A stretch of 64,000 bases of DNA from Streptomyces rubrogriseus (GTDB lineage: Bacteria; Actinomycetota; Actinomycetes; Streptomycetales; Streptomycetaceae). The translations under genes and the position numbers were made by a program. Shown one piece after another: positions 4,593 to 24,084 of this stretch. The number at the start of each line of letters is the position of its first letter. Within the stretch, counting starts at the first letter, position 1. A model generated the notes under the pieces. That model was given only the letters and a program-made list of their open reading frames with translations, was not told the origin of the DNA and did no database searches. The stretch is from positions 4,526,001 through 4,590,000 of the forward strand of contig NZ_CP116256.1 in assembly GCF_027947575.1 (NCBI RefSeq), given 5' to 3'.

Positions 4593-5969
4593 ATGCGGAG
4601 AACGTGCGTGATCGGAGCCGGCCCGTCCGGCCTGGCCGCGAGCAGGGTCCTCGCCTCGCGCGGCATCCCGTTCGACTGCTTCGAGGCGGGCTCGGGCATC
4701 GGCGGGCTCTGGCGCTATGGCAACGACAACGGGATGTCGGGGGTGTACGCGTCGCTGCACGCGAACATCTCCAAGGAGAGCATGTCCTTCTCCTCGTTGC
4801 CGATGCCGGATTCCTACCCGGTCTTCCCGCACCACACCCAGGTCCTCGCCTACCTGGAGAGCTACGCGGAGGCCTTCGGGCTGCACGGTCACATCGCGCT
4901 GCGCGCGGAGGTCACCTCCGTGCGCCCTGTGGAGGGCGGCGGCTGGGAGGTCACCCGCCGGAGCCGAGGAGCGGCGGAGGCGGTGACCGATCGGTACACC
5001 GAGGTGGTGGTGGCCAACGGGCACCACTGGGACCCGCGTCTTCCGGACCCCGCTGTGCCCGGGACCGGGGTGTTCGAGGGCTCCGCCGTCCACGCGCACG
5101 CCTACCGCTCCCCCGCGCCGTACGCCGGGCAGCGGGTGCTCGTCGTCGGGATGGGCAACTCCGGGTGCGAGATCGCGGCGGAGATCTCCCGTTCGGCGGC
5201 GCGGACGTTCCTCTCCGCCCGCACCGTGGCGCACGTGTTCCCGAAGATGCTGCTCGGGCGGCCCGCGGACCACTGGGCGGTGAGCAGGGCGGCCGCTCTG
5301 CCCCGCTTCCTCAAGAACCCGGCGATGGCACTCCTGCTGCGGCTGGCCCGTGGGACCCCCGCGCTCTACGGGCTCCCCGAACCGGTGCGGCGGCCTCTCG
5401 CCGCCCACCCCTCCACGTCGGACGAGCTCCTCGTCCAGCTGGCCCGGGGCGCGGTCACCGCGAAGCCCGGCATCCGCTCCTTCGGCAGGGACTCGGCGTC
5501 TTTCACGGACGGCAGCCGCGAGGCCGTGGACGCCGTGGTGTATGCCACCGGGTACTCACTGTCCTTCCCCTTCCTGGACCCCGCCGTCTTCGCCGCGCCG
5601 GACGGCCGCACCGAGCTGTATCTGCGCACGGTGCCGCCCCGGCTTCCCTGGCTCTTCTTCATGGGGCTCGCACAACCGGCGGGAGCGGCCTTCCCGTTGC
5701 TCGAACCGCAGGCCGAATGGATCGCCGACCTGATCGAAGGGGAGGTCCTTCTGCCGACGCCCGCGGAGATGACCCGGTCGATCGCCCGTGCGCGGGAACG
5801 GCACGACAAGGTCTACGCGCCGACCTACCGGCACGGGATCGAGATCGACATCCGCGCCTACCGGCGGGCCCTTCGTAGGGAGCTGCGGGCGGGCAGGCGC
5901 CGAGCGCTCCGGGCCGCCGCTCGCCGCCCCGACGCGCCTCGTCCCGCTCCGGTGTCCGACGCGGTGTGA
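4593..5969 (+). CDS. Flavin-containing monooxygenase (FMO/BVMO-like)
   Basis: A 458-residue flavoprotein. The N-terminal FAD site is VIGAGPSGLAASRV, the NADPH-binding Rossmann motif is VVGMGNSGCEIAAE, and the FMO-identifying pattern FxGxxxHxxxY appears as FEGSAVHAHAY between them. Such enzymes insert one oxygen atom into soft nucleophiles, or into carbonyl compounds in the Baeyer-Villiger relatives, using NADPH and O2. The ATG at 4593 is preceded by AAAGG and starts directly at the FAD fold. An in-frame extension to 3762 runs antisense to the ABC genes and is not real. The C-terminal 25 residues are a basic, low-complexity tail. It lies at the edge of the pfa-like locus and could oxidise its product (inference). 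Confidence 0.85.
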   Translation: MRRTCVIGAGPSGLAASRVLASRGIPFDCFEAGSGIGGLWRYGNDNGMSGVYASLHANISKESMSFSSLPMPDSYPVFPHHTQVLAYLESYAEAFGLHGHIALRAEVTSVRPVEGGGWEVTRRSRGAAEAVTDRYTEVVVANGHHWDPRLPDPAVPGTGVFEGSAVHAHAYRSPAPYAGQRVLVVGMGNSGCEIAAEISRSAARTFLSARTVAHVFPKMLLGRPADHWAVSRAAALPRFLKNPAMALLLRLARGTPALYGLPEPVRRPLAAHPSTSDELLVQLARGAVTAKPGIRSFGRDSASFTDGSREAVDAVVYATGYSLSFPFLDPAVFAAPDGRTELYLRTVPPRLPWLFFMGLAQPAGAAFPLLEPQAEWIADLIEGEVLLPTPAEMTRSIARARERHDKVYAPTYRHGIEIDIRAYRRALRRELRAGRRRALRAAARRPDAPRPAPVSDAV

Positions 5970-5977
5970 CCAGCCCT

Positions 5978-6053: not shown

Positions 6054-7421
6054 TCACCGCCGCACGCTCTCCTCCAGCTCTCGCACGGCCTGTTCCCACA
6101 GCTCCGGCAGCAGCTCGCCCAGCGGCAGGGCGCGGTCCGCGACGAAGGACACCTCCGCCCAGTCGCCGAAGAACGACAGCCCCACTCCGCAGAGGTGTCC
6201 CGGCACGAGGAGCGGCAGCAGGGCCGTCCCCGTCACCCGGGTCTCCCCCAGGCTCCCCTTCTCGGCGAGCGGCATGGACGTGGCCATGACGTTGGTGACG
6301 CGGGGGGACAGCATCCTGCGCAGGTACCACGCGGTGGGACGGTCCGGCATGTAGCGGACCAGGTCCTGAACGGCCTGTCGCCAGGTGTGGCCCCGCAGCT
6401 TCCGGGTCACCGCCATGATCCGGTCGAGCCGTCGCAGCGGCGCCTCCTCGTCCGGGGAGCCGTCCGGGCGGCCCGGGGCGGGGCCAACCGGCAGGTCGAC
6501 CGGAAGGGCGAAGCAGCGGTTGCCCCAGGTCTGCTCCTCGTCGGCCCGCCGCGCGTCGACGGGCAGCACGGCCGTCACCCGGGGCAGCGGCACGCCGGAG
6601 CGGGCCGCCCACACCGACAACGCCCCGGCCAGCGCGGCGAGATGCGCGTCGTGGGCCGAGCCACCGCGTCCGGCGCCGATCAGCCGCAGGGTGTCCACGG
6701 GGACGCGCCCCCGCCACAGCCGCCGCTCACCGGTAGGGGCGAAGGCCGGGTCCGGGCGGTGTCCGCGTACGGCGAAGGTGCGCGCCAGGAACCTCGTGGC
6801 CAGCGCGGCGGCCGCGCCGAACCGCCGGGGCACGCCGACCACCCCGCTCCCGCCCGGCAGTGGACGCGCTGACGGCTCCCCGTCGCCCAGCATCGCGCGG
6901 AACGTCATGGCAGCGGCCGAGCCGTCCTGGCAGGCGTGGAGGAAGCGGTAGCAGAGGGCGTACGCGTCGGGTTCGTGGCCGTGGATCAGCCAGACCCCCC
7001 AGTAGGCGCCCGGCGCGAACGGGGCGTTGAGCGCACTGTGCAGGGCTCTGTCCCAGTCGGCGGGTCCGTCGGCCACCACCTCGTACACATGCCGGTCGAC
7101 GGGGAAGTCCTCGGACGGCTGCCACCCGGGCCGCCTGCCTCCCGTCACCCGGCTGGTGAGCAGGGGCAGTTCACCGAGCCGGAACGCCACGTACGCGCGC
7201 AGATCGGCCAGGCTCGGGGGCGGGCCGCTGAGATACGCGACGCCGCCCGCGTCCCAGCGGACGTCGGGGCGGCGGCGCTCCAGGTCGAGGAACGCGCGGT
7301 CGACCGCGTGGGTGGGATGACAGGGCGGGGGGACGGAACGCTTCGGCCGGTCGGACCCCGCAGAGGGGCCCGCCGGCGCGGTGGGCGGGGCGGACACGGT
7401 GGACTGCTCGGAGTCGGGCAT
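6054..7421 (-). CDS. Wax ester synthase/DGAT-like (condensation-fold) acyltransferase
   Basis: A 455-residue protein built like bacterial WS/DGAT enzymes. Residues 39-95 (DRAFLDLE...DLRAYVAFRLGELPLLTSRV) match the family N-terminal pattern, and the catalytic motif HHxxxDG is present as LHACQDG (H162, D166, G167). The second, catalytic histidine is kept and the first is replaced by leucine. The C-terminal half carries NVMATSMPL and GVGLSFFGDWAEVSF, resembling the DUF1298 half. These enzymes join an acyl-CoA or acyl-ACP to a fatty alcohol or diacylglycerol. Start ATG at 7421 has a weak GGGAG; the open extension to 8138 lacks family sequence. The gene is opposite in strand to the surrounding lipid genes, divergent from the reductase. 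It could esterify the alcohol made by that reductase (inference); amide or other ester formation is also possible. Confidence 0.72.
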   Translation of the reverse strand: MPDSEQSTVSAPPTAPAGPSAGSDRPKRSVPPPCHPTHAVDRAFLDLERRRPDVRWDAGGVAYLSGPPPSLADLRAYVAFRLGELPLLTSRVTGGRRPGWQPSEDFPVDRHVYEVVADGPADWDRALHSALNAPFAPGAYWGVWLIHGHEPDAYALCYRFLHACQDGSAAAMTFRAMLGDGEPSARPLPGGSGVVGVPRRFGAAAALATRFLARTFAVRGHRPDPAFAPTGERRLWRGRVPVDTLRLIGAGRGGSAHDAHLAALAGALSVWAARSGVPLPRVTAVLPVDARRADEEQTWGNRCFALPVDLPVGPAPGRPDGSPDEEAPLRRLDRIMAVTRKLRGHTWRQAVQDLVRYMPDRPTAWYLRRMLSPRVTNVMATSMPLAEKGSLGETRVTGTALLPLLVPGHLCGVGLSFFGDWAEVSFVADRALPLGELLPELWEQAVRELEESVRR

Positions 7422-8179
7422 GCGGGTGCGGGCTCCCGTTCGGGCCGAGGCGGTGGCGACGACCACCGGTGGTGGGACAGAGGTACGACAGCGCGCGAAG
7501 GGCGGGACTCCGGCAGCCGGGCGCCCCATCCACCCGAGCCGGTCGCGCTGCCGGGACCGGCGGCTCACCAGGATGACCGGCGACCGGGACAGCGTCGGCC
7601 GGCTGCTGCGGCCCGTCCCGGCTCCGCGGGCGGGTACCGGACGGTTCCGCGACGGTCGCCGCCCACCCGCTATCCGCACCTCGCGGCCTCGTTTTCCCGT
7701 GCCGCGGCGGGGCCCCGGTGCCCGGCGCGCGCGGCCGTGTCCCGGGTCGCGGCCCGCGAGGGCGTCATCCTGGGGTACCGCGACGAGTTCCCCCGAAAGA
7801 GGGACCGGACCGAGCGGCGTGCGCCGGCGCCACCCACGGTCGAGCGACATCCTCCGTTCGGGTGGCCAGGGCGGATCGATGGGTGTGTTCCGTCCGCCGT
7901 CTGCCATTGTGTGGAAGGCGCCGGAGATCACCGGGGTTCGAAGGCCTGGTGAGCGCCGTCCGGGACGGGCGTCGGAAGAGCCGGGGGGCAGCGGCAGCAC
8001 GGATCGGCGGGACGATCCGGACCGTGCGCGGCGCGATCGCCGACGACGACCCGCGCCGCGGGACGGTCGACGCCGTGCCGCTCGTATCCGCTTCCGGTCC
8101 GCCGCACCGCCGGTGCTCCGCCTCCGCACGCCCCGCATGGCAGGGGACCGCCCTTCTCACCGCTCTGGGAGCCACGCTC
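7422..8179. other. 758-bp divergent gap inside the lipid locus
   Basis: This stretch separates the divergent acyltransferase and reductase genes. Frames are open on both strands because of GC bias, but their products are arginine/proline-rich with no domain, and none has a ribosome-binding site. It is unusually long for a plain promoter in this region. I see no regulator gene in it, so it probably holds the two promoters and possibly operators. Confidence 0.45.
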
Positions 8180-9388
8180 GTGCACGTCGCACTCACCGGC
8201 GCCACCGGATTCCTCGGACTGCGCCTGTTACGTCGTCTGCTCGACACGCATGAGTGGGTGACGGTCCTGGCCCACGCCGGTTCGGGCGACGCGCTGCACC
8301 GCATCACCCGTGCCCTCGAACTGACGGGTGCGCCGAGCGCGTTCCTCGCACGACTGCCCAAGCGGCTGAGGGTGGTGGAGACCGATCTGGCGCTGCCCCG
8401 GCTGGGCCTGTCCGCACGGGCGTTCCGAGAGCTGGCCGACAGCCTCGGCGAGATCTGGCACAGCGCGGGAAGCATCCATCTGGAAGGGGACCTTCCCGAG
8501 CTGCGACGGACCAATGTCGAAGGCACCCGCCACGTCCTGGAACTGGCGGCCGCCGGGCGCGCGGAACCGGTGGTGCGCCATGTGAGCACCGCGTTCGTGG
8601 CCGGCGCGCGGCGCACCGGGGTGGCGTACGAGGACGAACTGGACGACGGCGCCGGTTTCGAGAACGCCTACGAACAGTCCAAGTACGAGGCGGAGCTGCT
8701 GGTTCACGCCTGGTCCCGCGAGCACGGGCGACCGGCCTTGGTGCTGCGGCCGAGCATCCTCGTCACGGACGTGCCCCCGCACCCGGAGCTGCCTTCGCAC
8801 CCCCTGCAGGTCGTCGAGCGCATCCTGCGCGACGCGCGACGGGCCACCGCCGCCGCACCACCGACCGCCCCAGGCCCTCCCACCGGGGCTCCGGACGGTC
8901 CTTCCCGCGGCGCTCCCGGGTCGCCGGGCCCCGGGACCCGGCCCCGGGTACGGACGGTGGGGCACCCGCACGGGCGGCTGAACCTGTTACCGGTGGAGCA
9001 CGCGGCCGACGTCATGGTCCGCCTGTCCGAACTGCCGTCCTCACCCGGGGTCGACACGTACCACGTCGTCCATGACCGCGATGTCCCCGTGCCCACCGTC
9101 GTCGCCCTGCTGGAACGGCTCGTCCCCCTCTCGATCGACCTGGTCGACGCCAAGCCGGAGGACCCTTCGGCGCTGGAGACCATGATCGACTTCTACCCGG
9201 GCATCACGGCCTACCTCACCCACCGGAGGCGGTTCGACGACACCCGGGTGAGGACCCTGCTCGGTCCGGCGGCGGTCTGCGCTCCGGTCGGTCTCGATCG
9301 GCTGTGGTCCGGACTGGCCCCGAGGAGCGGGGCGCTCCCCCGGCCCCCGGACACCCCGCCCGCCCCTGCGCCCGCACCGTGCGCCTGA
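8180..9388 (+). CDS. NAD(P)-dependent thioester-reductase-like SDR (HglB/male-sterility type)
   Basis: A 402-residue extended SDR. The nucleotide-binding motif TGATGFLG is at residues 6-13, and the catalytic Ser136 (HVSTAFV) pairs with Tyr164 and Lys168 (YEQSK). The order of motifs, including LRRTNVEGTRHVL and LRPSILV, is that of thioester reductase and fatty acyl reductase domains. These release acyl chains from carrier proteins as aldehydes or alcohols. I chose the GTG at 8180 because it starts exactly at the Rossmann strand and has GGGAG eight bases upstream. A proline/glycine-rich insert (about residues 230-255) interrupts the fold. It precedes pfaD by 67 bp on the same strand and is probably the first gene of the synthase operon. 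Its likely role is reductive off-loading, as HglB does for heterocyst glycolipids (inference). Confidence 0.78.
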   Translation: MHVALTGATGFLGLRLLRRLLDTHEWVTVLAHAGSGDALHRITRALELTGAPSAFLARLPKRLRVVETDLALPRLGLSARAFRELADSLGEIWHSAGSIHLEGDLPELRRTNVEGTRHVLELAAAGRAEPVVRHVSTAFVAGARRTGVAYEDELDDGAGFENAYEQSKYEAELLVHAWSREHGRPALVLRPSILVTDVPPHPELPSHPLQVVERILRDARRATAAAPPTAPGPPTGAPDGPSRGAPGSPGPGTRPRVRTVGHPHGRLNLLPVEHAADVMVRLSELPSSPGVDTYHVVHDRDVPVPTVVALLERLVPLSIDLVDAKPEDPSALETMIDFYPGITAYLTHRRRFDDTRVRTLLGPAAVCAPVGLDRLWSGLAPRSGALPRPPDTPPAPAPAPCA

Positions 9389-9455: not shown

Positions 9456-11039
9456 GTGTCCGTTCTCGCCGCTCCCCACGCCCTTCCCGTGCGTCCGCCG
9501 GTCTTCTCCCCCGAGGGGATCGCCGACCATGTCCGGCTGATCCGGGAACCCGTGCACGTCGTCAGCGGGCCGGACGGCCGGGAGCTGGGCCTCGCGACCG
9601 GGGCACCGCCCGCCGGTCCGGTGCTGGGCACGCTGCCGCCGCTGTACCCCGAGTGGCTCGGCGGCCGGACCTTCTGCGAGGCGCACGGCGTCCGCTTCCC
9701 CTATGTGGCGGGGGAGATGGCGAACGGCATCGCGACCACCGGCATGGTCGCGGCGATGGCGCGGGCGGAGATGATCGGCTTCTTCGGTGCGGGCGGCCTG
9801 CCCCTCCCGGAGGTGGAGCGGGCTGTGCACTCCCTGGCGCAGGAGCTGGGGTCCCGCACGAACTGGGGAGTCAACCTCATCCACTCACCGGCCGAACCGG
9901 AGCTTGAGTGGCGGGTCGCGGAGCTTCTGCTGCGCCGCGGTGTCCCCCGGATCTCGGTGTCGGCGTTCATGGAGCTGACCCCTGCGGTCGTCCTGTGCTC
10001 GGCGCGGGGCCTGCGCCGGGGTGCGGACGGCGGCGTCGTCCGGCGTACGCGGCTGCTCGCGAAGCTCTCCCGTCCCGAGGTGGCCGAGAGGTTCCTCTCC
10101 CCCGCCCCGACGGCTCTGCTGGACCTCCTTGTCGCGCGGGGCAGCCTGACCCGCGAGGAGGCGGCTCTGGCGGCCCTGGTGCCGGTGGCCGAGGACATCA
10201 CCGTCGAGGCGGACAGCGGTGGGCACACCGACAACCGGCCGTTGTCGGTCCTGCTGCCGCGGATCGCCGCCCTGCGCGACACGGTCTGCCGGCGGTTCGG
10301 GTACCGGCGGCCGGTCCGCCTCGGCGCGGCCGGGGGCCTCGGCACCCCGGACGCGGTGGCCGCCGCTTTCGCTCTCGGCGCGTCCTACGTCGTCACCGGT
10401 TCGGTGAACCAGACGGCGGTCGAGGCCGGTCTGTCCGACGAGGCCAAGGCGATGCTGTGCGACGCGGACATCGCCGATGTCGCCATGGCGCCGTCGGCCG
10501 ACATGTTCGAGCTGGGCGTGAAGCTGCAAGTGCTGTCGCGGGGCACGATGTTCGCCCGGCGGGCCGGCCGCCTGTACACGGCCTACCGTGACCACGGCTC
10601 GCTGGAGGAGATCCCGCCCGCGCTGCGTACCGCCATCGAACGCGACGTGCTGGGCGCCCCGTTCGAGGAGGTCTGGCAGCGCACGCGTGCCTTCTGGGAG
10701 GAGCGCAATCCGGCGGAAACCGTCCGTGCGGAGGCCGACCCCCGGCATCGCATGGCTCTGGTGTTCCGCTGGTACCTGGGCAGTTCCAGCCGGTGGGCGA
10801 TCACCGGGGAGAGCGCGCGGCGGGCCGACTACCAGATCTGGTGCGGACCGGCGATGGGCGCGTTCAACCGGTGGGCGGCCGGCACCTTCCTGGCAGAACC
10901 GCTCCACCGGTCCGTGACGCAGATCGCCCTCAACCTGCTGGAAGGGGCCGCGACACTCACCCGCGCCCATCAACTGCGCACGTACGGCGTTCCGTTGCCT
11001 TCCGAGGCGTTCACCTACACGCCGCGCGAGCTGGCGTGA
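9456..11039 (+). CDS. pfaD: PfaD-type enoyl reductase of PUFA/polyketide synthase
   Basis: A 527-residue FMN TIM-barrel protein of the 2-nitropropane-dioxygenase superfamily that matches PfaD along its length. The start is MSVLAAPHALPVRPP, then GLPLPEVERAVHSL, the NWGVNLIHSP segment, GAAGGLGTPDAVAAAFALGA and the phosphate-binding GSVNQTAVEAG. The C-terminal half is the PfaD-specific region (AFWEERNP, MALVFRWYLGSSSRWAI, WCGPAMGAFNRW, then LNLLEGA). PfaD acts in trans as the enoyl reductase of secondary-lipid synthases. The GTG start has GGAG seven bases upstream. It lies 50 bp before the pfaA-like gene and is transcribed with it; in myxobacterial loci the same gene (pfa1) is also first. Confidence 0.9.
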   Translation: MSVLAAPHALPVRPPVFSPEGIADHVRLIREPVHVVSGPDGRELGLATGAPPAGPVLGTLPPLYPEWLGGRTFCEAHGVRFPYVAGEMANGIATTGMVAAMARAEMIGFFGAGGLPLPEVERAVHSLAQELGSRTNWGVNLIHSPAEPELEWRVAELLLRRGVPRISVSAFMELTPAVVLCSARGLRRGADGGVVRRTRLLAKLSRPEVAERFLSPAPTALLDLLVARGSLTREEAALAALVPVAEDITVEADSGGHTDNRPLSVLLPRIAALRDTVCRRFGYRRPVRLGAAGGLGTPDAVAAAFALGASYVVTGSVNQTAVEAGLSDEAKAMLCDADIADVAMAPSADMFELGVKLQVLSRGTMFARRAGRLYTAYRDHGSLEEIPPALRTAIERDVLGAPFEEVWQRTRAFWEERNPAETVRAEADPRHRMALVFRWYLGSSSRWAITGESARRADYQIWCGPAMGAFNRWAAGTFLAEPLHRSVTQIALNLLEGAATLTRAHQLRTYGVPLPSEAFTYTPRELA

Positions 11040-11089: not shown

Positions 11090-14000
11090 ATGTCCGGCTC
11101 CACCCCCCGCCAGTGCCCCATCGCCGTGGTCGGCGTCGGGGCGCTGGTTCCGGGCGCCACGGACGCAGCCGGCTACTGGCGGGTCGTGACCGGCGGCCGC
11201 GACCTGATCACCGAGGTCCCCGCCTCCCGCTGGCGGGTGGAGGACCACTACGATCCGGACCCGGCCGCCCCCGACAAGACGTACGCCCGCCGGGGCGCCT
11301 TCCTTCCCGAGGTGGACTTCGATCCGATGGCCTACGGGGTGCCTCCCGCCAATCTGCCGGCCACGGACACCTCCCAGCTGCTCGCCCTCATGGTCGCCGA
11401 CCAGGTGCTGAGGGACATCGGCGGGACGTCCGGGATCGACCGGGACCGGACCGGCGTTGTCCTCGGGGCGGCCGCCCTCGAACTGCTGCCGCACATGTAC
11501 GGGCGCTCCCAGCGCCCCGCGTGGCTGGCGGGGCTGCGGGAGAGCGGGCTGGACGAGGCCGAGGCGCAGGCTGTGTGCGACCGCATCGCCGCCCGCTTCG
11601 AGCCGTGGCGCGAGTCGACCTTCCCGGGGCTGCTGGGCAACGTCGTCGCGGGGCGGATCGCCAACCGGTTCGATCTGCACGGCGTCAACCACACCACCGA
11701 CGCCGCCTGTGCCAGCTCGCTGGCCGCCCTGTCGACGGCGGTCGCAGAACTGTCCCTGCGCCGGGCGGACCTGGTCATCAGCGGCGGCGTGGACACCGGG
11801 AACGACGTCGGCATGTTCCTCTGCTTCTCCAAGACGCCCGCGCTCTCCCCCAGCGGCGACTGCCGCCCGTTCGCGGAGGCGGCGGACGGCACGATGCTCG
11901 GTGAGGCGGTCGTGATGTACGCCCTGAAGCGTCTGTCCGACGCGGAGCGCGACGGCGACCGGATCCACGCCGTGATCAGGGGCATCGGCACCTCGTCGGA
12001 CGGCCGGAGCACAGCGATCTACGCCCCGCTGCCCGAGGGCCAGGAACGGGCCCTGCGACGCGCGTACGAGGAGGCCGGCTACCCGCCGGAGACCGTGGAG
12101 CTGGTCGAGGCGCACGGCACCGGCACGAAGGCCGGGGACACCGCGGAACTGGCCGCGCTCAACGCGGTGTTCGGCGCCTCGGGACGTCCTGACGGCCAGT
12201 GGTGCGCGATCGGCTCGGTGAAGTCGCAGATCGGGCACACCAAGTGCGCGGCGGGTGCGGCGGGGCTGCTCAAGGCAGTGATGGCCCTCCACCACAAGGT
12301 GCTCCCGCCCACAGTCAAGGTCGAACGACCGAACCCGGCGGCCGCCGCCCCTGACGGCCCGTTCTACGTGAACACGGAGGCCCGGCCGTGGGTGCGGCCG
12401 GCCGGTCATCCGCGCCGGGCGGCGGTGTCGAGTTTCGGCTTCGGCGGCAGCAACTTCCACGTCACCCTGGAGGAATACACGCCGCCGACCGTGCCCACCC
12501 CCTCGTCGGGCACGCAGGCGGACACCCCCGCGCGCCCGGCGCCGAAGAACACGGGCCGCCCTGCCCTGCGCCACCGCACGGCGTCGAGCGAGCTGGTCCT
12601 GTTCGCCGCCGCCTCGCCGTCCGCCCTGGAGGAACAACTGCCCGAGGACGGGCGGCCGCTGACCGAGCTGGCGAGGGAGAGCCACGCCGCGTTCTCGCCC
12701 ACCGCCCGGGTGCGGCTCGCCGTCGTCGCCACCGACACCGACGACCTGCGGGGTAAGTACGCGCAGGCGCTCGCGCACATCCGGCGGCGCCCCGAGGCGT
12801 CGTTCTCGGCCCCTTCCGGAATCCGGTACGCGTACGGAGAGTCCGCGCCCGGCCGCATCGGCTTCCTGTTCCCCGGGCAGGGCTCCCAGTACGTCGGGAT
12901 GGGGGCCGAGCTCGCGATGCTGGCCCCGGCCGCGCAGGCCGTGTGGGACCGGCTGGGCTCCACCCGCTTCGACGGAAGGCCGCTGCACCGGGCGGTGTTC
13001 CCGCCGCCCGCCTTCACCGAGGAGGAGCGTGACGCCCGAGCGACCCTGCTGAACGCCACCGAGTGGGCTCAGCCTGCGCTGGCGGTGCACGCCCTCGCGC
13101 TGCTGGCCGTGGTGCGGGAACTGGGGCTGCGGCCGGACTGCGTGGCCGGCCACAGTTTCGGCGAACTGGTGGCGCTGCACTGCGCGGGCGCCCTGGACGC
13201 GGAGTCGCTGGTCGGGCTGGCGCGTCGCCGCGGCGAGCTGATGCGGGAGGCGGCGGCCACCCCGGGCGCCATGCTGGCGGTGGCGGCGGACCGCGAACGC
13301 GTGACGGAGGTACTGGCCGGCGGTGGCTTCGAAGACATCTGGCCCGCCAACCACAACTCGCCCCGTCAGACGGTGCTCTCAGGTTCGGCGGCGACGGTCG
13401 AAAGGGCGAGGAGCGCCTTCTCGGCCGCGGGGATCGCCTCCCGCGCACTGTCCGCGTCGACCGCCTTCCACAGCCCGCTGGTCGCCCCGGCCGTCGAGCC
13501 GCTCGCCGCCCACCTGCGCACGGTGACGTTCTCGGAACCCCGGATCGAGGTCTACGGCAACACGGACGCGGCGCCCTACCCCTCCTGCCCGGACGCGGTG
13601 CGCCGCCGGGTCGCCGGTCATCTCGCCTCGCCGGTCCTCTTCCAGGACCAGATCGAGGCGATGTACGCGGCGGGGGTGCGGATTTTCGTGGAGGTCGGCG
13701 CGGGCGCCACGCTCACGGGCCTGGTCGGGCAGATCCTCGGCGACCGTGAGCACGCGGCCGTGCCCCTTGACCGGCCGGCCGGGGCGGGCGCCGACACCTT
13801 CCACGCCGCGCTCGGTGAACTCGCCGTACGGGGCGTTCCCCTCGACCTCGTCCCCCTCTGGACCCCCTACGCATCACCCGGAACACCAGCGAAGGAGCGC
13901 GAGCCCCGAATGACCGTGAAGATCAGTGGAGCCAACTACGGTCAGCTCCCGCCCTCCGGAACCCCGCACGTCGAACCGACGCACGCCCCGGAATACGGGC

Positions 14001-17000: not shown

Positions 17001-17314
17001 AGGCGACGGTAACGGGCCTGCGGTCCCTTGGCTGGCCGGGCGGGCACGGTCCGCTGGATCCGGCCGCCGTGGACGGCGCGCTGCAACTCGCGCTGCTCTG
17101 GGGCGAGAAGGTGCTCGGGACGGCGACCCTGCCGATGGCCGTCGCGGAGTGCAGGGTGTACCGGCGGGGCCCGGTGGACGACGCCGTGCGCTGTGTGGTG
17201 CGGGGACGCAAGGCCCACGACACCGGGGCACGCTGCGACGCCGCGCTGATCGGCCCCGGCGGGTCCGTCCTGCTGGAGCTGACCGGCGTCGAACTCGTCA
17301 GCCGCCCCTCCTGA
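11090..17314 (+). CDS. pfaA: PfaA-type iterative fatty-acid/polyketide synthase (KS-MAT-ACP-KR-DH)
   Basis: A 2074-residue megasynthase. Domains in order: ketosynthase (about 8-455, catalytic Cys207 in DAACASS, His342 in EAHGTGT, His383 in GHTKCAAG); malonyl acyltransferase (585-890, Ser689 in GHSFGE); proline-rich linker; one acyl carrier protein (1180-1265, phosphopantetheine Ser1220 in LGVDSIKR); ketoreductase with its structural part (1345-1790, GGARGV, Tyr1726 in DYAMAN); and a C-terminal polyketide-type dehydratase (1825-2070, His1832 in DHAPAG, Asp1995 in VDGALQL). This is the PfaA order, but PfaA of PUFA producers normally carries several tandem ACPs and this one has one. The ATG at 11090 follows GAGGAGA. 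The protein would extend and reduce acyl chains with PfaD and PfaC. A separate phosphopantetheinyl transferase is not in the window. Confidence 0.92.
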   Translation: MSGSTPRQCPIAVVGVGALVPGATDAAGYWRVVTGGRDLITEVPASRWRVEDHYDPDPAAPDKTYARRGAFLPEVDFDPMAYGVPPANLPATDTSQLLALMVADQVLRDIGGTSGIDRDRTGVVLGAAALELLPHMYGRSQRPAWLAGLRESGLDEAEAQAVCDRIAARFEPWRESTFPGLLGNVVAGRIANRFDLHGVNHTTDAACASSLAALSTAVAELSLRRADLVISGGVDTGNDVGMFLCFSKTPALSPSGDCRPFAEAADGTMLGEAVVMYALKRLSDAERDGDRIHAVIRGIGTSSDGRSTAIYAPLPEGQERALRRAYEEAGYPPETVELVEAHGTGTKAGDTAELAALNAVFGASGRPDGQWCAIGSVKSQIGHTKCAAGAAGLLKAVMALHHKVLPPTVKVERPNPAAAAPDGPFYVNTEARPWVRPAGHPRRAAVSSFGFGGSNFHVTLEEYTPPTVPTPSSGTQADTPARPAPKNTGRPALRHRTASSELVLFAAASPSALEEQLPEDGRPLTELARESHAAFSPTARVRLAVVATDTDDLRGKYAQALAHIRRRPEASFSAPSGIRYAYGESAPGRIGFLFPGQGSQYVGMGAELAMLAPAAQAVWDRLGSTRFDGRPLHRAVFPPPAFTEEERDARATLLNATEWAQPALAVHALALLAVVRELGLRPDCVAGHSFGELVALHCAGALDAESLVGLARRRGELMREAAATPGAMLAVAADRERVTEVLAGGGFEDIWPANHNSPRQTVLSGSAATVERARSAFSAAGIASRALSASTAFHSPLVAPAVEPLAAHLRTVTFSEPRIEVYGNTDAAPYPSCPDAVRRRVAGHLASPVLFQDQIEAMYAAGVRIFVEVGAGATLTGLVGQILGDREHAAVPLDRPAGAGADTFHAALGELAVRGVPLDLVPLWTPYASPGTPAKEREPRMTVKISGANYGQLPPSGTPHVEPTHAPEYGPRPDAVPAVAAPAPAVTLPSQPPGDVPPPPVYVPAAASSQQEFGPSHPAQAPADARPVIGDDRQLAVESIHRQTAETHLACQRLLTDSHMAFLRMTETTLAALLGAPVPGAVPDMTAPAPLPLPRSAGPLDVPAAVAPPVAAPAPAAVVGAATPYPVPEASAPPASHAVRPSVSEPAPPTEAPARDASAPDRSVSEPAPSELSSSELSSSELSSSELEELLLSVVADLTGYPTAMLHVDMDLEADLGVDSIKRVEILSAVRRRVGDVAVGDAGRLGKLRTLREITTALASGARAAGSAPEPGVPGVPAPRADAFEPSPAKAREAAPFSTTVDVPAVRGDGSGGSDGDAGADGWTPLTRLAPRMVESPASGLATAGLLDGPVVVSGEDVTGCPVVGLVARKLAERGVDATAVAEVPEGARGVIHLGGLSASGTPDEAREVHRSALRAARALAPRAAEGGGLFVTVQDTGGDFGLGGHAPGRAWLGGTAGLARTAAKEWPDVQVRVLDCERGGRDDEEVADAIVCELLEGGADTEVGLRADGTRALLRMVPAPLTPGGAPRIGETSVIVATGGARGVTAAALLDLARTHQPRIVLLGRTEAAAEPAGLASATDERALTRLLAERARDDAEGSSPARIAEEARRILAAREVRATLAGLEAAGSPARYVRVDVRDADALTAALREVRATWGPVTGIVHGAGVLADKRIADKTDEQAEPVMATKVDGLRALLTATADDPLDTILLFSSVAAVFGNAGQSDYAMANEVLQQVASAEQARRPDCLVRCVAWGPWQGGMVTPALAAHFGRAGVPLIPPAQGAAACTAELDGAAGEARVVLTAGDRPAAADERLRAQVLVTSDTLPQLADHAPAGVPVLPVALVLNWFAGAAAAWLPTEGPLVLRDLRVYRKYDLPELEGVGHRLTVFGSRGAPGSPAGLEAELRGEEGPAHFRAVVDTGDGAPDRSSWDTPGDLKPLDVAAPYHGGVLFHGPRFHALREVRGVSEHGAEATVTGLRSLGWPGGHGPLDPAAVDGALQLALLWGEKVLGTATLPMAVAECRVYRRGPVDDAVRCVVRGRKAHDTGARCDAALIGPGGSVLLELTGVELVSRPS
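14597..14650 (+). repeat. 15-bp tandem repeat (about 3.6 copies) coding SELSS units before the ACP
   Basis: The unit TCGGAGCTGTCTTCC is repeated exactly at 14597, 14612 and 14627, with a partial copy at 14642. It keeps the frame and encodes repeated Ser-Glu-Leu-Ser-Ser in the linker directly upstream of the single ACP of the PfaA-like protein. Such a repeat can expand or contract by slippage and so change linker length. Confidence 0.9.
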
Positions 17315-17361: not shown

Positions 17362-20300
17362 ATGCGTTTCGAACCGATCGCCATCGTCGGCCGGGGCTGT
17401 GTCCTGCCCGGCGCACTGGACCCGGACGGGTTCTGGGAGAACGTCGCCGCCGGGCGTACGAGTCTGACGGCGGCCCCGGAAGGCCGGTGGCGGCTGCCGC
17501 GCCACCGGGTCATGGGCACGGTGGACGACCACCTCGACCGCACGTGGACCGACATCGGGGGGTACGTCGAGGGGTTCGAATCCGTCTTCGACCCGGCAGG
17601 CTTCCTCGTCCCCCCGGAGCGGATCGCGACGCTGGACCCGCTCTTCCACTGGGTGCTCCACGGGGTACGGCAGGCGCTCACGGAGGCGGGCCGCACCGCA
17701 CCGCTGGGGCGCGGCGGGCTGATCCTGGGCAACCTGTCGTACCCCACTCCCACCGGGGCGGCCTTCGCCGAACACGTCTGGCTGTCGGCGCAGCGACCGG
17801 AGCTCCGCGACGTGCTGCTGACGGGTGGTCGCCGCCCCCGCCCCGATGCCCGCAACCGCTTCTCCTCCGGCCTCCCGGCCCTGCTCGCGGCCCGCGCGCT
17901 CGGGCTCGGGGCCGGGGCGTGGTCCCTCGACGCGGCCTGCGCCTCCTCGCTGTACGCGATCAAGCTGGCGTGCGACCGCCTGCACGACGGCACGGCCGAC
18001 CTGATGGTGGCCGGTGCGGTCAGCCGGCCCGACCCTCTCTACCTGCACGTGGGGTTCTGCGGGCTGTCCGCGACGAGCCGTACGGGGCGCAGCCGCCCCT
18101 TCGACCGGGACGCCGACGGGCTGGTGCACGGTGAGGGCGCCGGGTTCGTCGCCCTGGCGCGGCTCTCCGACGCCCGCGCGGCGGGACTCCCCGTGTTCGG
18201 GGTGATCCGCGGGGTGGGGCTGTCCAACGACGGGCGGGGGTCCGGTCTGATCAGCCCGTCCGAGGAGGGCCAGGTGCGGGCGATGCGCCTGGCGTACGAG
18301 GTGGCGGGCGTCGCTCCCGAGTCGGTGTCGCTCGTCGAGTGCCATGCGACGGGAACCCCGGTCGGCGACGCGGTGGAGGCACGGGGCATGGCCCGGGTCT
18401 TCGGGGCCGCCGACGACGTGCCGATCGGTTCGGCGAAGTCGAACGTCGGGCATCTGCTGGCCTCGGCGGGCGTGGCGGGGCTGCTGAAGGTGCTGGGTGC
18501 GATGCGCTCCGGGGTGCGCCCGGCGACACTCGGCGCGCGTCGGCCGCTGGACGCCCTGTCGGGCACGCCGTTGCGCGTGCTGGACACGGCGGAGCAGTGG
18601 GCGGGGCCCCGCAGGGCGGCGGTCAGCGCGTTCGGGTTCGGCGGGACCAACGCCCACCTGCTCCTCGACGACCCGGACGACGCTCCCCCGCCCTCCCGGC
18701 CCCGGCCGGCGTACGGACCGCGGTCCACCGCGCGGCGGACCGCACCGGCGGAGCGGGCACCGGAGGACCCGGTGCCGGGACCCGACGCGCCGGTCACCCC
18801 GGCCGCGGCAGCCGACAGCGGTGCGCCGGGCGACCGTACGCCCGGGGCATGCGCGGTACCCGTGGCGATCGTCGCCATCGGGGCGCGGGTCGGGGAGGGA
18901 ACATCGGTCGAGGACCTCCGCCGGGCGGTGCTGGGCGGTGGACGGCGCGGCCCGGTCGCGGAGATCGCCGTGCAGCTGACGGGCCTGTGCTTCCCCCCGC
19001 TCGCCCTGGAGCGGACCGTACGCCATCAGCTCCTGGTGCTGGAGGCCGCCCGGGAGGCTGCCCGGACGGTGGACCTGCCCCGGGAGCGGACCATGGTGGT
19101 CATCGGTGCCGGCGTGGACCCGGAGGTGGCCCGGGCGGGCGCGCGCTGGCGGATTCCCCACTGGCTGGAGGAGTCGGGTGTGCCCGTCACCGCGGCGTCG
19201 GCGGACCTCGCCCGGGACGCCTTCACCCCGCCCATGACGGCGGAGGGGGTGGTGGGCAGCATGCCGAACCTGGCGGCGAACCGCATCAGCACCCAACTGG
19301 ACCTGGCGGGACCGAGTTTCACGGTGTCCGCCGAGGAGACGTCCGGGCTGGTGGCGCTGGAGGCCGCGGCCCGCGCCCTGCGGTCGGGGGAGGTCGACGC
19401 CGTGCTCGTCGGCGCCACCGACCTGTCCTGCGAGGCGGTCCACCGGGCCGCCGTGCGGGAGTCCGCTCCCGGCGTGGAGCCCGGTGACGCGGCGGTCGTC
19501 CTGGTCCTCAAGCTGCTGGACGCCGCCCGCCGGGACGGGGACACCGTCGTCGCCGTACTGGACGAGGAAGCCGGCGACGAACCCGACATGGTCATCGGCG
19601 ACGGCCCGGACGCGGGATTCGATCCGGCGTCCGCCTTCGGGCGCGCCCATGCGGCATCCGGGCTGGTGTCCGTCGCCGTCGCGGCGCTCTCGCTCCAGCA
19701 CCGCGCGGTCCCCCGCCCCGACGCTCCCGCCGACACGACGGCCGTCGCCCACACCGCGCGGGTCGTCGCCGTACCGGCGGCGGGGTCGGCCATGAGCGTC
19801 CGGCTGCGGGCCGGGGACCCCCGGCCGTGGCTGCCGGGGCCCGACCCGCGCCTGCGCGTCTTCTCCGGGGCGGACCGCGCTCAGGTGCTGGCCGCACTGG
19901 AGGCCGGGACCGAGTCCTCGGCGGGCCCGGCACGGCTGGCTCTCGTGGCGGACGGCGGCACCGCCTGGGCGGAGCGGCGCGAAGCGGCCCGTCGCTGGCT
20001 GGCGGAGGGCGGGGCCCGCCCGGCGGATGTCCTGTACCGGGACGCGCCGGTCGGCGGCGAGACCGCCTTCGTGTACACCAACGGCTCGGCCGCGTACCCC
20101 GGGATGGGCCACGCGCTGACGCTGGCGTGCCCGTCGCTGGGCGAGAGCGTCCGAGCGGGGCACCGGGCGATCGGGACGCGGCTGCGCTCCGGGAGGGGGC
20201 CCGGCGTGCTCGACCAGATCTGGTCCGTCGCCGAACTGGCGGTCTTCCACACCGTGTTCAGCCGTGAGGTGCTGGGCCTGCGGCCGGACGCCGCGATCGG

Positions 20301-23300
20301 CTACTCCTCGGGCGAGTCGACGGCACTGGTCGCGCTGGGCGCGTGGCCGGACGCCTCGGGGCTGTACGAGGCGACGCAGGAGAGCGGGCTGTTCACCACG
20401 GAGCTCACGGGTGAGCTGCGGGCGGTGCGGCGCTACTGGCGGCAGCGTGGCATCGGCGGCGACCGCTGGTCGAGCTATCTGGTCGCCGCGCCCCTTGAGG
20501 CTGTCCGCGCGGAGCTCGCCGGGGAGCGGGCGGTCCATCTGATGGCGGTGAACGCGCCGGGGGTCTGCGTCGTCGGCGGCGAGGCTAAGGCATGCGCGGC
20601 CGTGGTCACCCGGTTGGGCGTGGACCGGGCGATCGAGCTGGACTACGACATGGCCGCCCACGCCCCGGAGTTGGCGGAGGTCCGCGAGGTGTGGCACGAG
20701 GCCCACCGCCGCCCCACGGTCGATGTGCCGGGGGTCCGGTTCTACAGCGCGGCCACCGGCCGGGCGTACCGTCCGACGACCGAGCGGGCCGCCGAAGCGC
20801 TCACCGCTCAGGGACTGGGCACGATCGACTTCGCGGCGACGATCGAGCGGGCGTGGGCGGACGGTGTCCGCGTCTTCGTGGAGCACGGGCCCCGGAAGCT
20901 GTGTACCGGCTGGATCAAGCGGGTCCTCGGGGACCGGGAGCATGTGGCCGTCGCGCTGGACACCCCGGACGACGCCGGGCTGCGGAATCTGTGCCTGGCC
21001 GTCGGCGAACTCGTGGTGGCCGGGGTGCCGGTGCGGGCCGACGCGTTGACCGCCCGGCTCGCCGAGGCCGCCACCGGCCTCCCGGCCCCCGGCCCCACCG
21101 TCACTGTTGCCGTACCCCCCACGCCCTGCCTGCCGCCCCTGGAGCGCGCCGTGACCGTTCTGCCCCGGGCCCCCGAGCTGGCGCCGGTGCCGGCGGAGCG
21201 GCCCGCTCCCGCGGAACGGCCCGGTGCCCCGGTTGCCGCCGTGTCCGCCGCCGCGGTGGGGCCGGTGGCCCGGTTGTCCGACCCGGCGTCCCCGGCGTTG
21301 GGGTCGCCGGAGGTCGCGGGCACGGTCGCCCGGCAGAGCCGGCGGGCCGCCCTGGTGCACGAGGAGATCATGGCCGCGCACGCGGAGGCCCACCGGCGGT
21401 TCCTGGACGTGTCCGCGCTGGCCGTCACGGCGCTGACGGCGGGCGGCAGGGCGGACGCCGGACGCGCGGCGGTTTCCCTGCCCATGGGAGGCGTTGTCTC
21501 CGTACCGCCGTCCGCCGCCCTCCCCGTACGACCGCCGTGCGCCCCGCCCGTCCCCGTGCGGCCGCCGGGCCCGGTATCAGCCCCGCGCCCCGGCACGGCT
21601 CCGGCTCCGGTCCCTGTCCCGGGAGGGAAGCCGGTGTTCGACCGGGCCCAGTTGGAGTACCTCGCCTCCGGGGAGATCTCCGCGCTGTTCGGTCCGCGCT
21701 TCGCCGAGCAGGACCGGTACGCGGTGCAGACCCGGATGCCCGGACCACCCATGCTCTTCGCCGACCGGGTCACCGCCATCGACGCGGTGCCCGCGGCGCT
21801 CGTCCTGCCGGGGCCGGTCCGCACGGACGGGCGGATCTGGACGGAGACCGACATCCTGACCGACAGCTGGTACCTGGACGCGACGGGACGCATGCCGGCC
21901 GGCGTGCTGATCGAGGCGGGACAGGCCGATCTGCTGCTGCTCAGCTGGCTGGGGGCGGACCTGCTCAACCGGGGCGAGCGCGCCTACCGCCTGCTCGGCT
22001 GCGAGGTGACGTTCCACGGCGGCCCGCCCCGCCCCGGCGACACCCTGTGCTTCGAGATCCATGTGGACGGCCACGCGGAGGCGGGCGGGGTCCGGCTGGC
22101 CTTCTTCCACTACGACTGCTACGTGGACGGCGAGTTGCGGCTCAGCGTCCGCGAGGGCCAAGCCGGCTTCTTCACCCCCGCCGAACTGGCCGCCGGCGGC
22201 GGGGTGCGCTGGGACCCGGCCGAGCACCCTCCCGGCGACGACCTTCCGTTCGACCCTCCGGCCGTACGCTGCGAGCGGACCAGCTTCGGCACGGACCGGG
22301 TGCGGTCCCTCGCGCAGGGGTCGCCCGCGGAGTGTTTCGGGCCGGGCTGGGAGGCGACGGCAGCCCATGTGCGGACACCCCTGCTCGACGGGGAGCGGCT
22401 GCGCCTGCTGGACGAGGTCACCGTGTTCGACCCGGTCGGCGGGCCGTGGGGCCGGGGGTATCTGCGCGCCGAGACGGCGGTGTCCCCGGACGACTGGTTC
22501 TTCACCGGCCACTTCAAGAACGACCCCTGCATGCCGGGCACCCTGATGCTCCAGGGCGGTCTCCAGGCCATGGCCTTCTATCTGACGGCCTCGGGCCACA
22601 CCGTCGACCGGGACGGCTGGCGTTTCGAACCGGTCGACGCCCAGCCGTCCCGGGCCAAGTGCCGGGGCCAGGCGACTCCGGAGTCCCGGAGGATCGTCTA
22701 CGAGGTGTTCGTCCGGGGCGTCTCGGCCGGGCCGGTGCCGACGCTCCACGCCGATGTCCTCGGGTCGGTGGACGGCAGGAAGGCGTTCCTGGGGCGCGGC
22801 ATGGCACTCCGGCTGGTGCCCGACTGGCCGTTGTCGCAGTGGCGGGTCTCGGGCCCGCCCGTCGTGCAGGAGGACGGAACGCCGGTGCCGCTGCCCCGGC
22901 TCGGCGGACTGTCCGGGCACCGGGAGGAGAAGGCGGTGGCCGTCACGGCCGATGGGTTCCGCTTCGACTACGCGTCGTTGCTGGCATGCGCCTGGGGCAG
23001 GCCCAGCAAGGCGTTCGGCACCATGTACGAGCCCTTCGACGGCACCCGCAGGGTCGCCAGGCTCCCCGGGCCGCCCTACCACTTCATGAGCCGGATCGTC
23101 TCGGTGGACGGCGTCCAGGGCGGCATGCGGGAGGGCAGCGTCGTCGTCGCCGAGTACGACGTACCGGAACGGGCGTGGTACTTCGAGCAGAACCCGTCCC
23201 GGCGCATGCCGCTCGCGGTCCTCATGGAGGTCGCGCTGCAGCCCTGCGGGTGGCTGGCCTCGTACGCCGGCAGCGCGACGACCAGCGAGCAGGACCTGCT

Positions 23301-24084
23301 GTTTCGCAACCTGGACGGAGTGAAGACGGTCACCGGCGAGGTCACCGCCGGGACGCGCACGATCCGCACCCGGGCCGAACTGACCCGTGTCTCGCGCAGC
23401 GGGGACATGATCATCGAGTCGTTCCGGGTGGTGTGCACGGCCGACGACGCGCCCCTCGCCGAACTCACCACGGTCTTCGGCTACTTCCCCCGGTCGGCGT
23501 TCGACGACCAGCAAGGGCTGCCGGTCCCGGCCGAGGATCGCGCCCGTCTCGACGAGCCCTGCGACCGAGTGGTCGACCTGACCGTCCGGCCCGCCCGCTA
23601 CTGCGCCGGGGAGCCGCGCCTGCCGGGCCGCATGCTGCTGATGCTGGACCGGGTCACGGGCTCCTGGCCGGAGGGCGGAAGCGCGGGGCTCGGCCGACTG
23701 CGGTCGGAGAAGGACGTGCGCCCGGAGGCCTGGTTCTTCCGGGCCCACTTCTTCCAGGACCCGGTGCAGCCCGGCTCCCTGGGGGTCGAGGCCATGTGCC
23801 AACTGCTCCAGTACCACCTGATCGAGGGCGGCGCGGCGGACGGGATCGTCCACCCCCGATTCGATCCGGTGCTGCCCGGCCGGGAGACGGTGTGGACGTA
23901 CCGGGGCCAGATCACCCCCGCCAACCGGCTGATCCGGGTGGACATGGACATCGTGGAGTCCGGTACGGACGCACGCGGACCCTATGCCGTCGCGGACGCG
24001 ACGCTGTGGGGCGACGACACGTGCATCTACCGGGTACGGGGGCTGGGGATGCGGGTGGTGTCGGGCCCTCCGCCCGTGCGGTGA
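17362..24084 (+). CDS. pfaC: PfaC-type synthase with embedded AT (KS-CLF-AT-DH-DH)
   Basis: A 2240-residue megasynthase. The ketosynthase (1-440) has Cys193 (DAACASS), His328 (ECHATGT) and His364 (SNVGHL). A chain-length-factor domain (about 495-835) has Glu659 where a KS would have cysteine. An acyltransferase (about 885-1210) carries GYSSGES, with Ser982 in the nucleophile position. After a long Pro/Ala linker come four hotdog segments forming two FabA-type dehydratases; the active ones have GHFKNDPCMPG (His1717) and AHFFQDPVQPG (His2129). The AT placed inside PfaC, instead of in a separate PfaB, is the layout I know from myxobacterial Pfa3. The AGPAT domain that ends Pfa3 is absent here: the protein stops just after the second dehydratase. 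It lies 47 bp after pfaA. FabA-type domains suggest trans/cis double-bond handling, but the final product is unknown. Confidence 0.9.
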   Translation: MRFEPIAIVGRGCVLPGALDPDGFWENVAAGRTSLTAAPEGRWRLPRHRVMGTVDDHLDRTWTDIGGYVEGFESVFDPAGFLVPPERIATLDPLFHWVLHGVRQALTEAGRTAPLGRGGLILGNLSYPTPTGAAFAEHVWLSAQRPELRDVLLTGGRRPRPDARNRFSSGLPALLAARALGLGAGAWSLDAACASSLYAIKLACDRLHDGTADLMVAGAVSRPDPLYLHVGFCGLSATSRTGRSRPFDRDADGLVHGEGAGFVALARLSDARAAGLPVFGVIRGVGLSNDGRGSGLISPSEEGQVRAMRLAYEVAGVAPESVSLVECHATGTPVGDAVEARGMARVFGAADDVPIGSAKSNVGHLLASAGVAGLLKVLGAMRSGVRPATLGARRPLDALSGTPLRVLDTAEQWAGPRRAAVSAFGFGGTNAHLLLDDPDDAPPPSRPRPAYGPRSTARRTAPAERAPEDPVPGPDAPVTPAAAADSGAPGDRTPGACAVPVAIVAIGARVGEGTSVEDLRRAVLGGGRRGPVAEIAVQLTGLCFPPLALERTVRHQLLVLEAAREAARTVDLPRERTMVVIGAGVDPEVARAGARWRIPHWLEESGVPVTAASADLARDAFTPPMTAEGVVGSMPNLAANRISTQLDLAGPSFTVSAEETSGLVALEAAARALRSGEVDAVLVGATDLSCEAVHRAAVRESAPGVEPGDAAVVLVLKLLDAARRDGDTVVAVLDEEAGDEPDMVIGDGPDAGFDPASAFGRAHAASGLVSVAVAALSLQHRAVPRPDAPADTTAVAHTARVVAVPAAGSAMSVRLRAGDPRPWLPGPDPRLRVFSGADRAQVLAALEAGTESSAGPARLALVADGGTAWAERREAARRWLAEGGARPADVLYRDAPVGGETAFVYTNGSAAYPGMGHALTLACPSLGESVRAGHRAIGTRLRSGRGPGVLDQIWSVAELAVFHTVFSREVLGLRPDAAIGYSSGESTALVALGAWPDASGLYEATQESGLFTTELTGELRAVRRYWRQRGIGGDRWSSYLVAAPLEAVRAELAGERAVHLMAVNAPGVCVVGGEAKACAAVVTRLGVDRAIELDYDMAAHAPELAEVREVWHEAHRRPTVDVPGVRFYSAATGRAYRPTTERAAEALTAQGLGTIDFAATIERAWADGVRVFVEHGPRKLCTGWIKRVLGDREHVAVALDTPDDAGLRNLCLAVGELVVAGVPVRADALTARLAEAATGLPAPGPTVTVAVPPTPCLPPLERAVTVLPRAPELAPVPAERPAPAERPGAPVAAVSAAAVGPVARLSDPASPALGSPEVAGTVARQSRRAALVHEEIMAAHAEAHRRFLDVSALAVTALTAGGRADAGRAAVSLPMGGVVSVPPSAALPVRPPCAPPVPVRPPGPVSAPRPGTAPAPVPVPGGKPVFDRAQLEYLASGEISALFGPRFAEQDRYAVQTRMPGPPMLFADRVTAIDAVPAALVLPGPVRTDGRIWTETDILTDSWYLDATGRMPAGVLIEAGQADLLLLSWLGADLLNRGERAYRLLGCEVTFHGGPPRPGDTLCFEIHVDGHAEAGGVRLAFFHYDCYVDGELRLSVREGQAGFFTPAELAAGGGVRWDPAEHPPGDDLPFDPPAVRCERTSFGTDRVRSLAQGSPAECFGPGWEATAAHVRTPLLDGERLRLLDEVTVFDPVGGPWGRGYLRAETAVSPDDWFFTGHFKNDPCMPGTLMLQGGLQAMAFYLTASGHTVDRDGWRFEPVDAQPSRAKCRGQATPESRRIVYEVFVRGVSAGPVPTLHADVLGSVDGRKAFLGRGMALRLVPDWPLSQWRVSGPPVVQEDGTPVPLPRLGGLSGHREEKAVAVTADGFRFDYASLLACAWGRPSKAFGTMYEPFDGTRRVARLPGPPYHFMSRIVSVDGVQGGMREGSVVVAEYDVPERAWYFEQNPSRRMPLAVLMEVALQPCGWLASYAGSATTSEQDLLFRNLDGVKTVTGEVTAGTRTIRTRAELTRVSRSGDMIIESFRVVCTADDAPLAELTTVFGYFPRSAFDDQQGLPVPAEDRARLDEPCDRVVDLTVRPARYCAGEPRLPGRMLLMLDRVTGSWPEGGSAGLGRLRSEKDVRPEAWFFRAHFFQDPVQPGSLGVEAMCQLLQYHLIEGGAADGIVHPRFDPVLPGRETVWTYRGQITPANRLIRVDMDIVESGTDARGPYAVADATLWGDDTCIYRVRGLGMRVVSGPPPVR

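Follow-up and report, generated by a model that had tools for sequence, protein, structure and literature searches.

A Type L-like polyunsaturated fatty acid synthase cluster of Streptomyces with a linked thioester-reductase-like SDR and candidate reductive chain release

Gene content of the locus

We analysed a window of 64,000 nucleotides from Streptomyces rubrogriseus (contig NZ_CP116256.1, positions 4,526,001 to 4,590,000), which carries a gene cluster built around a synthase of the Pfa type, the family that makes polyunsaturated fatty acids (PUFAs). Four plus-strand genes form an operon, separated by gaps of 67, 50 and 47 bases: a 402-aa thioester reductase of the short-chain dehydrogenase/reductase (SDR) type, which stands first (8180–9388; PF07993, E 5e-46); a 527-aa PfaD enoyl reductase (9456–11039; TIGR02814, 686.6 bits against a cut-off of 449.25); a 2074-aa PfaA with the domain order KS-AT-ACP-KR-PS-DH and a single ACP (11090–17314; TIGR02813 omega_3_PfaA, 1189.5 against a cut-off of 1010.1); and a 2240-aa PfaC with the order KS-CLF-AT-DH-DH, comprising two KS-type stretches (KS and CLF), an AT and FabA-type dehydratases (17362–24084).

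To the left of the operon, and divergent from it, lies a gene on the minus strand for a 455-aa acyltransferase of the condensation-domain superfamily that resembles wax ester synthases/diacylglycerol acyltransferases (WS/DGAT) and carries the motif LHACQDG (6054–7421). It is followed leftwards by a plus-strand gene for a flavin-containing monooxygenase (FMO; 4593–5969; PF00743, E 2e-81) and then by three minus-strand genes: an ABC transporter ATPase (3738–4484; PF00005, E 3e-28), an ABC-2 type permease that it overlaps by 4 bases (2866–3741; a weak match to PF12698, 24.9 bits against 31.6) and a small 173-aa protein without a Pfam match, whose N terminus looks by eye like a signal peptide and which adjoins the ABC genes in relatives (2161–2682).

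The original prediction, made from the sequence of the window, placed PfaD, PfaA and PfaC in one SDR-led operon with a WS/DGAT-like acyltransferase and an FMO alongside. That gene list holds: all six genes are intact open frames with third-position GC of 0.86–0.93, a strong codon-position signal, and four of them (PfaD, PfaA, PfaC and FMO) have family matches far above chance. The acyltransferase gene is likewise real, though its placement needed correction, as it diverges from the pfa operon rather than lying inside it and probably begins near 7421, not 8138. We rejected the 694-aa frame at 6054–8138 as the true acyltransferase because 7422–8138 shows no codon-position signal.

Domain content of the synthase

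What we take to be the active-site motifs of KS, AT, KR and PS-DH are all present in the window's synthase, including GHSFG in the AT of PfaA. The KS cysteine motif was found in 39/39 PfaA and 37/37 PfaC proteins (window included; most of the PfaC set are N-terminal pieces), and the window's CLF has Glu at the position of the KS cysteine. The window has both features that define the Type L organization: pfaD stands at the 5′ end, and pfaBC is fused, joining KS-CLF to AT and DH. Family scans of the 527-aa PfaD gave no match to an aminotransferase domain.

Two features set this synthase apart. PfaA has a single ACP motif in all 39 proteins compared, namely that of the window and 38 relatives of over 1,700 aa; four relatives with shorter, truncated sequences were left out. 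Applied to five other synthases, the same motif finds 2, 2, 3, 6 and 4 ACPs, which shows that tandem ACPs can be detected in this way. PUFA synthases are described as having two to over ten ACPs (PMC4882568); the tandem ACPs of a classical synthase for eicosapentaenoic acid (EPA) or docosahexaenoic acid (DHA) are missing from the window's PfaA. The other feature concerns the end of PfaC. Our domain scan found no PF01553 (AGPAT) match in the window's protein, which ends past the second dehydratase, and did find one at the C terminus of the Azospirillum relative; the C terminus of myxobacterial Pfa3 is reported to carry AGPAT as well (PMC8436480).

The thioester-reductase-like SDR

The SDR is 95–96% identical to proteins of S. 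lividans and S. anthocyanicus. In an alignment of 28 close SDR proteins, the Gly-rich stretch TGATGFLG, STAFV and a Tyr-x-x-x-Lys motif (Y-E-x-S-K) are invariant. We take a Gly-rich NAD(P) motif, a Thr/Ser-Tyr-Lys set and an extended SDR fold to be the features of reductase (R) domains, and the SDR has all of them. In fold, a predicted model (pLDDT 72.4) best matches structures of the MxaA terminal R domain (4u7w, 4w4t) and the thioreductase of an S. coelicolor polyketide synthase (PKS; 8v1x); the R domains of carboxylic acid reductases come next and nucleotide-sugar epimerases after them. Family, fold and constant linkage to the synthase together suggest that this stand-alone protein reduces an acyl-ACP thioester.

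Linkage of the SDR and acyltransferase to the pfa genes

One genome per species was scanned with the alignment of 28 SDR proteins, which yielded 46 loci. Two partial, weak matches without pfa genes (L076, 41%; L077, 37%) were dropped from all counts, leaving 44 relatives, 43 from Streptomyces and one from Saccharothrix. In two of these (L049 and L051) the locus stops just beyond the SDR on its contig; in all 42 loci that remain testable for downstream genes, 41 of Streptomyces and the one of Saccharothrix, the SDR is followed by PfaD and a PfaA-like gene. The same order recurs on an Embleya plasmid, whose SDR is 39% identical.

Upstream genes were counted in the 38 loci with more than 3.4 kb of sequence upstream of the SDR. 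A WS/DGAT-like gene is present there in 29, the ABC permease in 21 and the FMO in 13. Searches with tblastn agree (FMO 13/44, permease 21/44 relatives), and both the ABC ATPase and the 173-aa protein are matched over at least 75% of their length in 21/44. In Streptomyces the WS/DGAT-like gene diverges from the SDR, whereas the Saccharothrix copy shares the strand of the SDR and separates it from PfaD.

Distances of the linked genes also rise together. Spearman correlations are 0.90 for SDR–PfaD (43 loci), 0.91 for WS/DGAT–SDR (29 loci), 0.88 for WS/DGAT–PfaD (27 loci), 0.73 for FMO–SDR, and 0.52 for both ABC permease–SDR and FMO–WS/DGAT; none of the six values was reached in 999 label permutations. 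This test left out plus-strand WS/DGAT copies (second copies and that of Saccharothrix) and a 185-aa fragment (L066). The original prediction was to be given up if the SDR and the acyltransferase belonged to unrelated conserved neighbourhoods. They do not: the SDR accompanies the Pfa genes wherever this can be seen, and the WS/DGAT-like gene, present in most loci, follows the synthase.

The WS/DGAT-like acyltransferase

A search of PDB sequences with the acyltransferase returned two matches only (E 0.25 and 0.64), neither credible. Its predicted model (pLDDT 76.8) is closest in fold to Marinobacter WS/DGAT (6chj) and an Acinetobacter wax synthase (7nxg); further matches are AzeD (8s6l) and condensation domains of non-ribosomal peptide synthetases (NRPSs), which have good scores (TM about 0.5–0.7). 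Within HHxxxDG, the second His, the Asp and the Gly are kept in 34/34 aligned proteins, and the first His varies, being Leu in the window; we take the second His to be catalytic, and this motif together with the acyltransferase fold to be what characterizes WS/DGAT enzymes. The fold match and the conserved His-x-x-x-Asp-Gly motif strengthen the WS/DGAT assignment, which remains tentative.

In three relatives a second WS/DGAT-like gene, on the plus strand, adjoins the first (L040, 6615–7847; L049, 6417–7649; L051, 6802–8049). These second copies are 29–31% identical to the window's protein.

Variable members and flanking genes

Around the SDR-PfaD-PfaA-PfaC genes, which the comparison of loci identifies as the stable core, the tailoring and export set varies. 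Nine of the 38 loci have no WS/DGAT-like gene next to the SDR (L053, L060, L061, L062, L065, L071, L072, L073 and L075), so esterification would not be a core function; L067, with less upstream room, appears to lack the gene likewise. Among the five WS/DGAT-lacking Streptomyces loci examined for it (L060, L061, L062, L072 and L075), two (L062 and L075) have a transporter of the MMPL family near PfaC. Such a transporter also lies beside PfaC in Saccharothrix and diverges from the SDR in Embleya. In Saccharothrix and in several WS/DGAT-lacking loci, PfaC carries a dehydratase-like extension at its C terminus; in L062 this extension is a separate gene. In stretches from distant relatives (L120, 5808–8066 and 8063–9229 on the minus strand; L121, 2216–4483) an MMPL transporter follows PfaC, with the dehydratase-like extension separate in the L062 genome.

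The plasmid of Embleya sp. NBC_00888 (L124, 11876–28417) carries MMPL, SDR, PfaD, PfaA and a short PfaC made of KS, CLF and the extension, in which our domain scan detected neither the AT nor the FabA dehydratases. This variant may make no cis double bonds.

The FMO, in which we recognize what we take to be the FAD, FMO and NADP motifs, is an optional member of the cluster; remnants in L039 and L040 are fragments only and were excluded from the counts. The original prediction had allowed for a hydroxylated product, and although the gene is indeed present in the window, its occurrence in only 13 of 38 loci weakens that part of the claim.

On the other side, the DNA downstream of PfaC was compared for ten loci that carry WS/DGAT, and they have no gene family beside PfaC in common; one family of TetR-type regulators is common to L113 and the window, some 10 kb from PfaC. 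Two-component genes lie to the right of PfaC in the window (24446–26232). We rejected them as core members, since tblastn against the 44 relatives and 16 downstream stretches found no match to the kinase and a single weak match to the regulator (35%, L074). A DUF6223 protein (26409–26861) adjoins the sensor kinase. Farther right, beyond the pfa cluster and the two-component genes, are three DDE-transposase-type genes (28024–28683, 28903–29772 and 32113–32490), and the right half of the window holds a Barstar-domain protein (PF01337, 36110–36991).

The source genome is a single contig of 8.41 Mb. A dnaA match at 1097–2122 of that contig indicates that the record begins at the origin, with the window roughly opposite; the window is then subtelomeric if the chromosome is linear, or else at the arm junction.

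A KS tree of PfaC

A tree of 40 PfaC N termini (the first 560–600 residues, mostly KS; SH-aLRT support only, rooted at the midpoint) places the 17 SDR-linked rows in one group (SH-aLRT 100). The rows nearest outside it are one from Rhodocyclaceae (93) and one from Polyangiaceae (90); across the midpoint root lie Aureispira, Persicobacter, Nostoc PCC 7524 and an unrelated synthase from a Streptomyces plasmid. Embleya sits on a long branch, and its placement is unsure. The queries that supplied the outside rows came from Azospirillum and Persicobacter, so the sample is biased; the Saccharothrix PfaC was left out. The references in the tree include PfaC of Aureispira, whose pfa genes direct the synthesis of arachidonic acid (ARA) (PMC4882568), a protein from a Polyangiaceae metagenome-assembled genome and one from Nostoc PCC 7524 whose type is unknown. 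Plasmid records, five of six without annotation, supplied comparison synthases. The tree has no rows named as Shewanella, Moritella, Sorangium or heterocyst glycolipid (Hgl) proteins, most of the references that the original prediction had called for being missing.

Proposed pathway and alternatives

We lean, with moderate confidence, towards the interpretation that the locus is a specialized-lipid cluster on a Type L PUFA-synthase core, whose chain is released reductively as an aldehyde or alcohol and then probably esterified and exported. With the one ACP of PfaA as carrier, PfaA, PfaC and PfaD would assemble a long acyl chain, and the domain set would allow several double bonds to be retained. 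Because the AGPAT domain is missing, the synthase itself would not pass the chain to glycerophosphate. Instead, the SDR would reduce the acyl-ACP thioester with NAD(P)H, giving the aldehyde or alcohol, and the divergent WS/DGAT-like enzyme, where present, could esterify the alcohol or hand the chain to a different hydroxyl group. Export of the product might then fall to the ABC transporter or, in some relatives, to one of the MMPL family, and in some strains the FMO may add an oxidation. Given reductive release, esterification and export as proposed, the product would probably be a reduced, possibly polyunsaturated, esterified surface lipid rather than free or phospholipid-bound EPA. The original interpretation is partly supported: it keeps its Pfa-type synthase with linked SDR and linked acyltransferase, and FMO hydroxylation becomes its weaker part.

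Several observations pull the other way. The family score of the SDR is below the TIGR01746 cut-off (136.8 against 213.35), and its fold match is moderate (TM about 0.6), with other extended SDRs such as epimerases further down the list. Sequence scores for the acyltransferase make a weak case for WS/DGAT (TIGR02946, 101.4 against 309.95; PF03007, 22.8 against 23.6), the fold match of that model is also moderate (TM about 0.6), and the nine loci named above lack the gene beside the SDR. In L032 (S. tendae), whose SDR is 96–97% identical, the FMO is unmatched and the ABC genes are partly matched; in Saccharothrix, PfaC is on the opposite strand. The strict KR motif is found in 34/39 PfaA proteins; of the five exceptions, L073 agrees with a looser pattern, and neither pattern fits L061, L067, L072 or L074. 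The correlated distances may come from shared descent alone, and the KS tree sets the SDR-linked clade near AGPAT-bearing, Type L-like synthases. The AT of PfaC, with GYSSGE, retains the Ser and Tyr given for terminal acyltransferases of the PfaB type (PMC12895367), although its match to TIGR02816 PfaB is below the cut-off (69 against 144.3); the chain could leave through this route. Finally, myxobacterial Type L clusters are reported to make true PUFAs, namely ARA, EPA and DHA (PMC4882568).

The last two points also favour the most conventional alternative, that of a plain EPA-like PUFA synthase, as annotated, whose chain is released through the AT of PfaC together with a general PlsC, the SDR acting elsewhere. 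PfaA and PfaD matches above the TIGR02813 and TIGR02814 cut-offs and the presence of PS-DH and FabA-type dehydratases are in keeping with it. We nevertheless consider it unlikely: the SDR precedes PfaD and PfaA in every testable locus, every PfaA examined has one ACP, the AGPAT match is absent from the window's PfaC, WS/DGAT and transporter genes are linked to the operon, and PUFA production in S. coelicolor was described as undemonstrated as of 2011 (PMC3098273). A different doubt is whether the SDR and Pfa genes are one unit whose WS/DGAT, FMO and ABC neighbours are there through common Streptomyces synteny and not as partners. Their absence from 9 (WS/DGAT), 17 (ABC permease) and 25 (FMO) of 38 loci would suit such an arrangement, as would a 74% identical WS/DGAT in the genome of L053 (G051), found at the very start of a contig and outside the L053 stretch. 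Common synteny is improbable, however, given that gene families beyond the ABC block are common to at most four loci and WS/DGAT nevertheless stays, that the Saccharothrix WS/DGAT sits between SDR and PfaD, and that the cluster is patchy, with the SDR found at E ≤ 1e-60 in only 1 of 60 other sampled genomes of the genus.

The logic of zeamine biosynthesis offers a further route, in which the SDR gives the chain a terminal aldehyde or alcohol, the condensation-fold protein forms an amide or ester with a partner made elsewhere in the genome and the hybrid is exported by the ABC transporter. The zeamine cluster has an analogous gene set that includes Zmn14, Zmn19 and ABC transporters (PMC3547906), condensation domains score well in the acyltransferase fold search, and the window has two aminotransferase genes (48253–49668 and 51422–52672). 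These genes, though, are at least 24 kb from the cluster, past the transposase genes and amid amino-acid genes; PfaD has no aminotransferase domain, the window genes scanned (not every one) gave no NRPS match, and the best folds for the acyltransferase are wax synthases. We regard this route as quite improbable.

Returning to reductive release, a bolder extension, tentative and rather doubtful at present, is that Streptomyces has a pathway devoted to polyunsaturated fatty alcohols or their wax-type esters. In it a Type L PUFA synthase would have exchanged phospholipid transfer by AGPAT for reductive release and, served by a wax-synthase-like enzyme and an exporter of its own, would supply a surface lipid to aerial hyphae or spores. 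If such a pathway exists, the EPA label of the corresponding S. coelicolor cluster is wrong. Reductive release by itself would make that label, on a two-decade-old orphan cluster, misleading, and could show how PUFA synthases are re-routed from membrane lipids to specialized lipids.

Comparison with known systems

The cluster type is already known and not newly found; its product is unproven. Close relatives, gene order and the literature suggest that the window has the cluster type of S. coelicolor SCO0124–SCO0129. Those genes, or some of them, are treated as an EPA cluster in several studies (PMC2374992, PMC6414726, PMC7324645, PMC5932044), a label that goes back to the genome paper and is still used in transcriptome studies, and their transcription appears to be associated with sporulation (PMC2374992). 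Shulse and Allen filed the S. coelicolor cluster as Type L (PMC3098273), and the window shares with that type a PfaD on the 5′ side and a fused PfaC/AT, although pfaBC is given there as KS-CLF-DH2-AT and the window's PfaC is KS-CLF-AT-DH-DH. In the openly licensed literature searched, we found neither the SDR nor the acyltransferase of this cluster described for Streptomyces. The gene content reported here suggests that the EPA label is doubtful.

The myxobacterial Type L clusters of Aetherobacter, Sorangium and Minicystis resemble the window in having pfa1 (PfaD), pfa2 (PfaA with PS-DH) and pfa3, the last with the order KS-CLF-AT-DH-DH′ in Aetherobacter and Minicystis, as in the window's PfaC. 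As described, however, the myxobacterial synthases end in AGPAT and PUFA synthases have multiple ACPs, whereas in the window AGPAT is unmatched, PfaA has one ACP and an SDR has been added. Hgl islands, as far as they are described, share with the window a Pfa-related synthase, a thioester reductase (TER) and an ABC transporter; they also include a glycosyltransferase, for which the window genes scanned gave no match.

The original prediction was also to be given up if a characterized cluster had the same gene set and product. An analogous gene set does exist in the zeamine cluster (PMC3547906), which, like that of fabclavine, has PfaA-, PfaC- and PfaD-like genes, a stand-alone thioester reductase (Zmn14 in zeamine), a stand-alone condensation protein (Zmn19) and ABC transporters. 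Its product is another matter: as described, zeamine depends on an aminotransferase domain, carried by the pfaD orthologue, and on NRPS genes, which stand beside PKS genes and a pfaC orthologue without AT; the window's PfaD has no such domain, and its scanned genes, a part of the whole, gave no NRPS match. By gene set, the zeamine cluster is the nearest characterized analogue of the Streptomyces locus.

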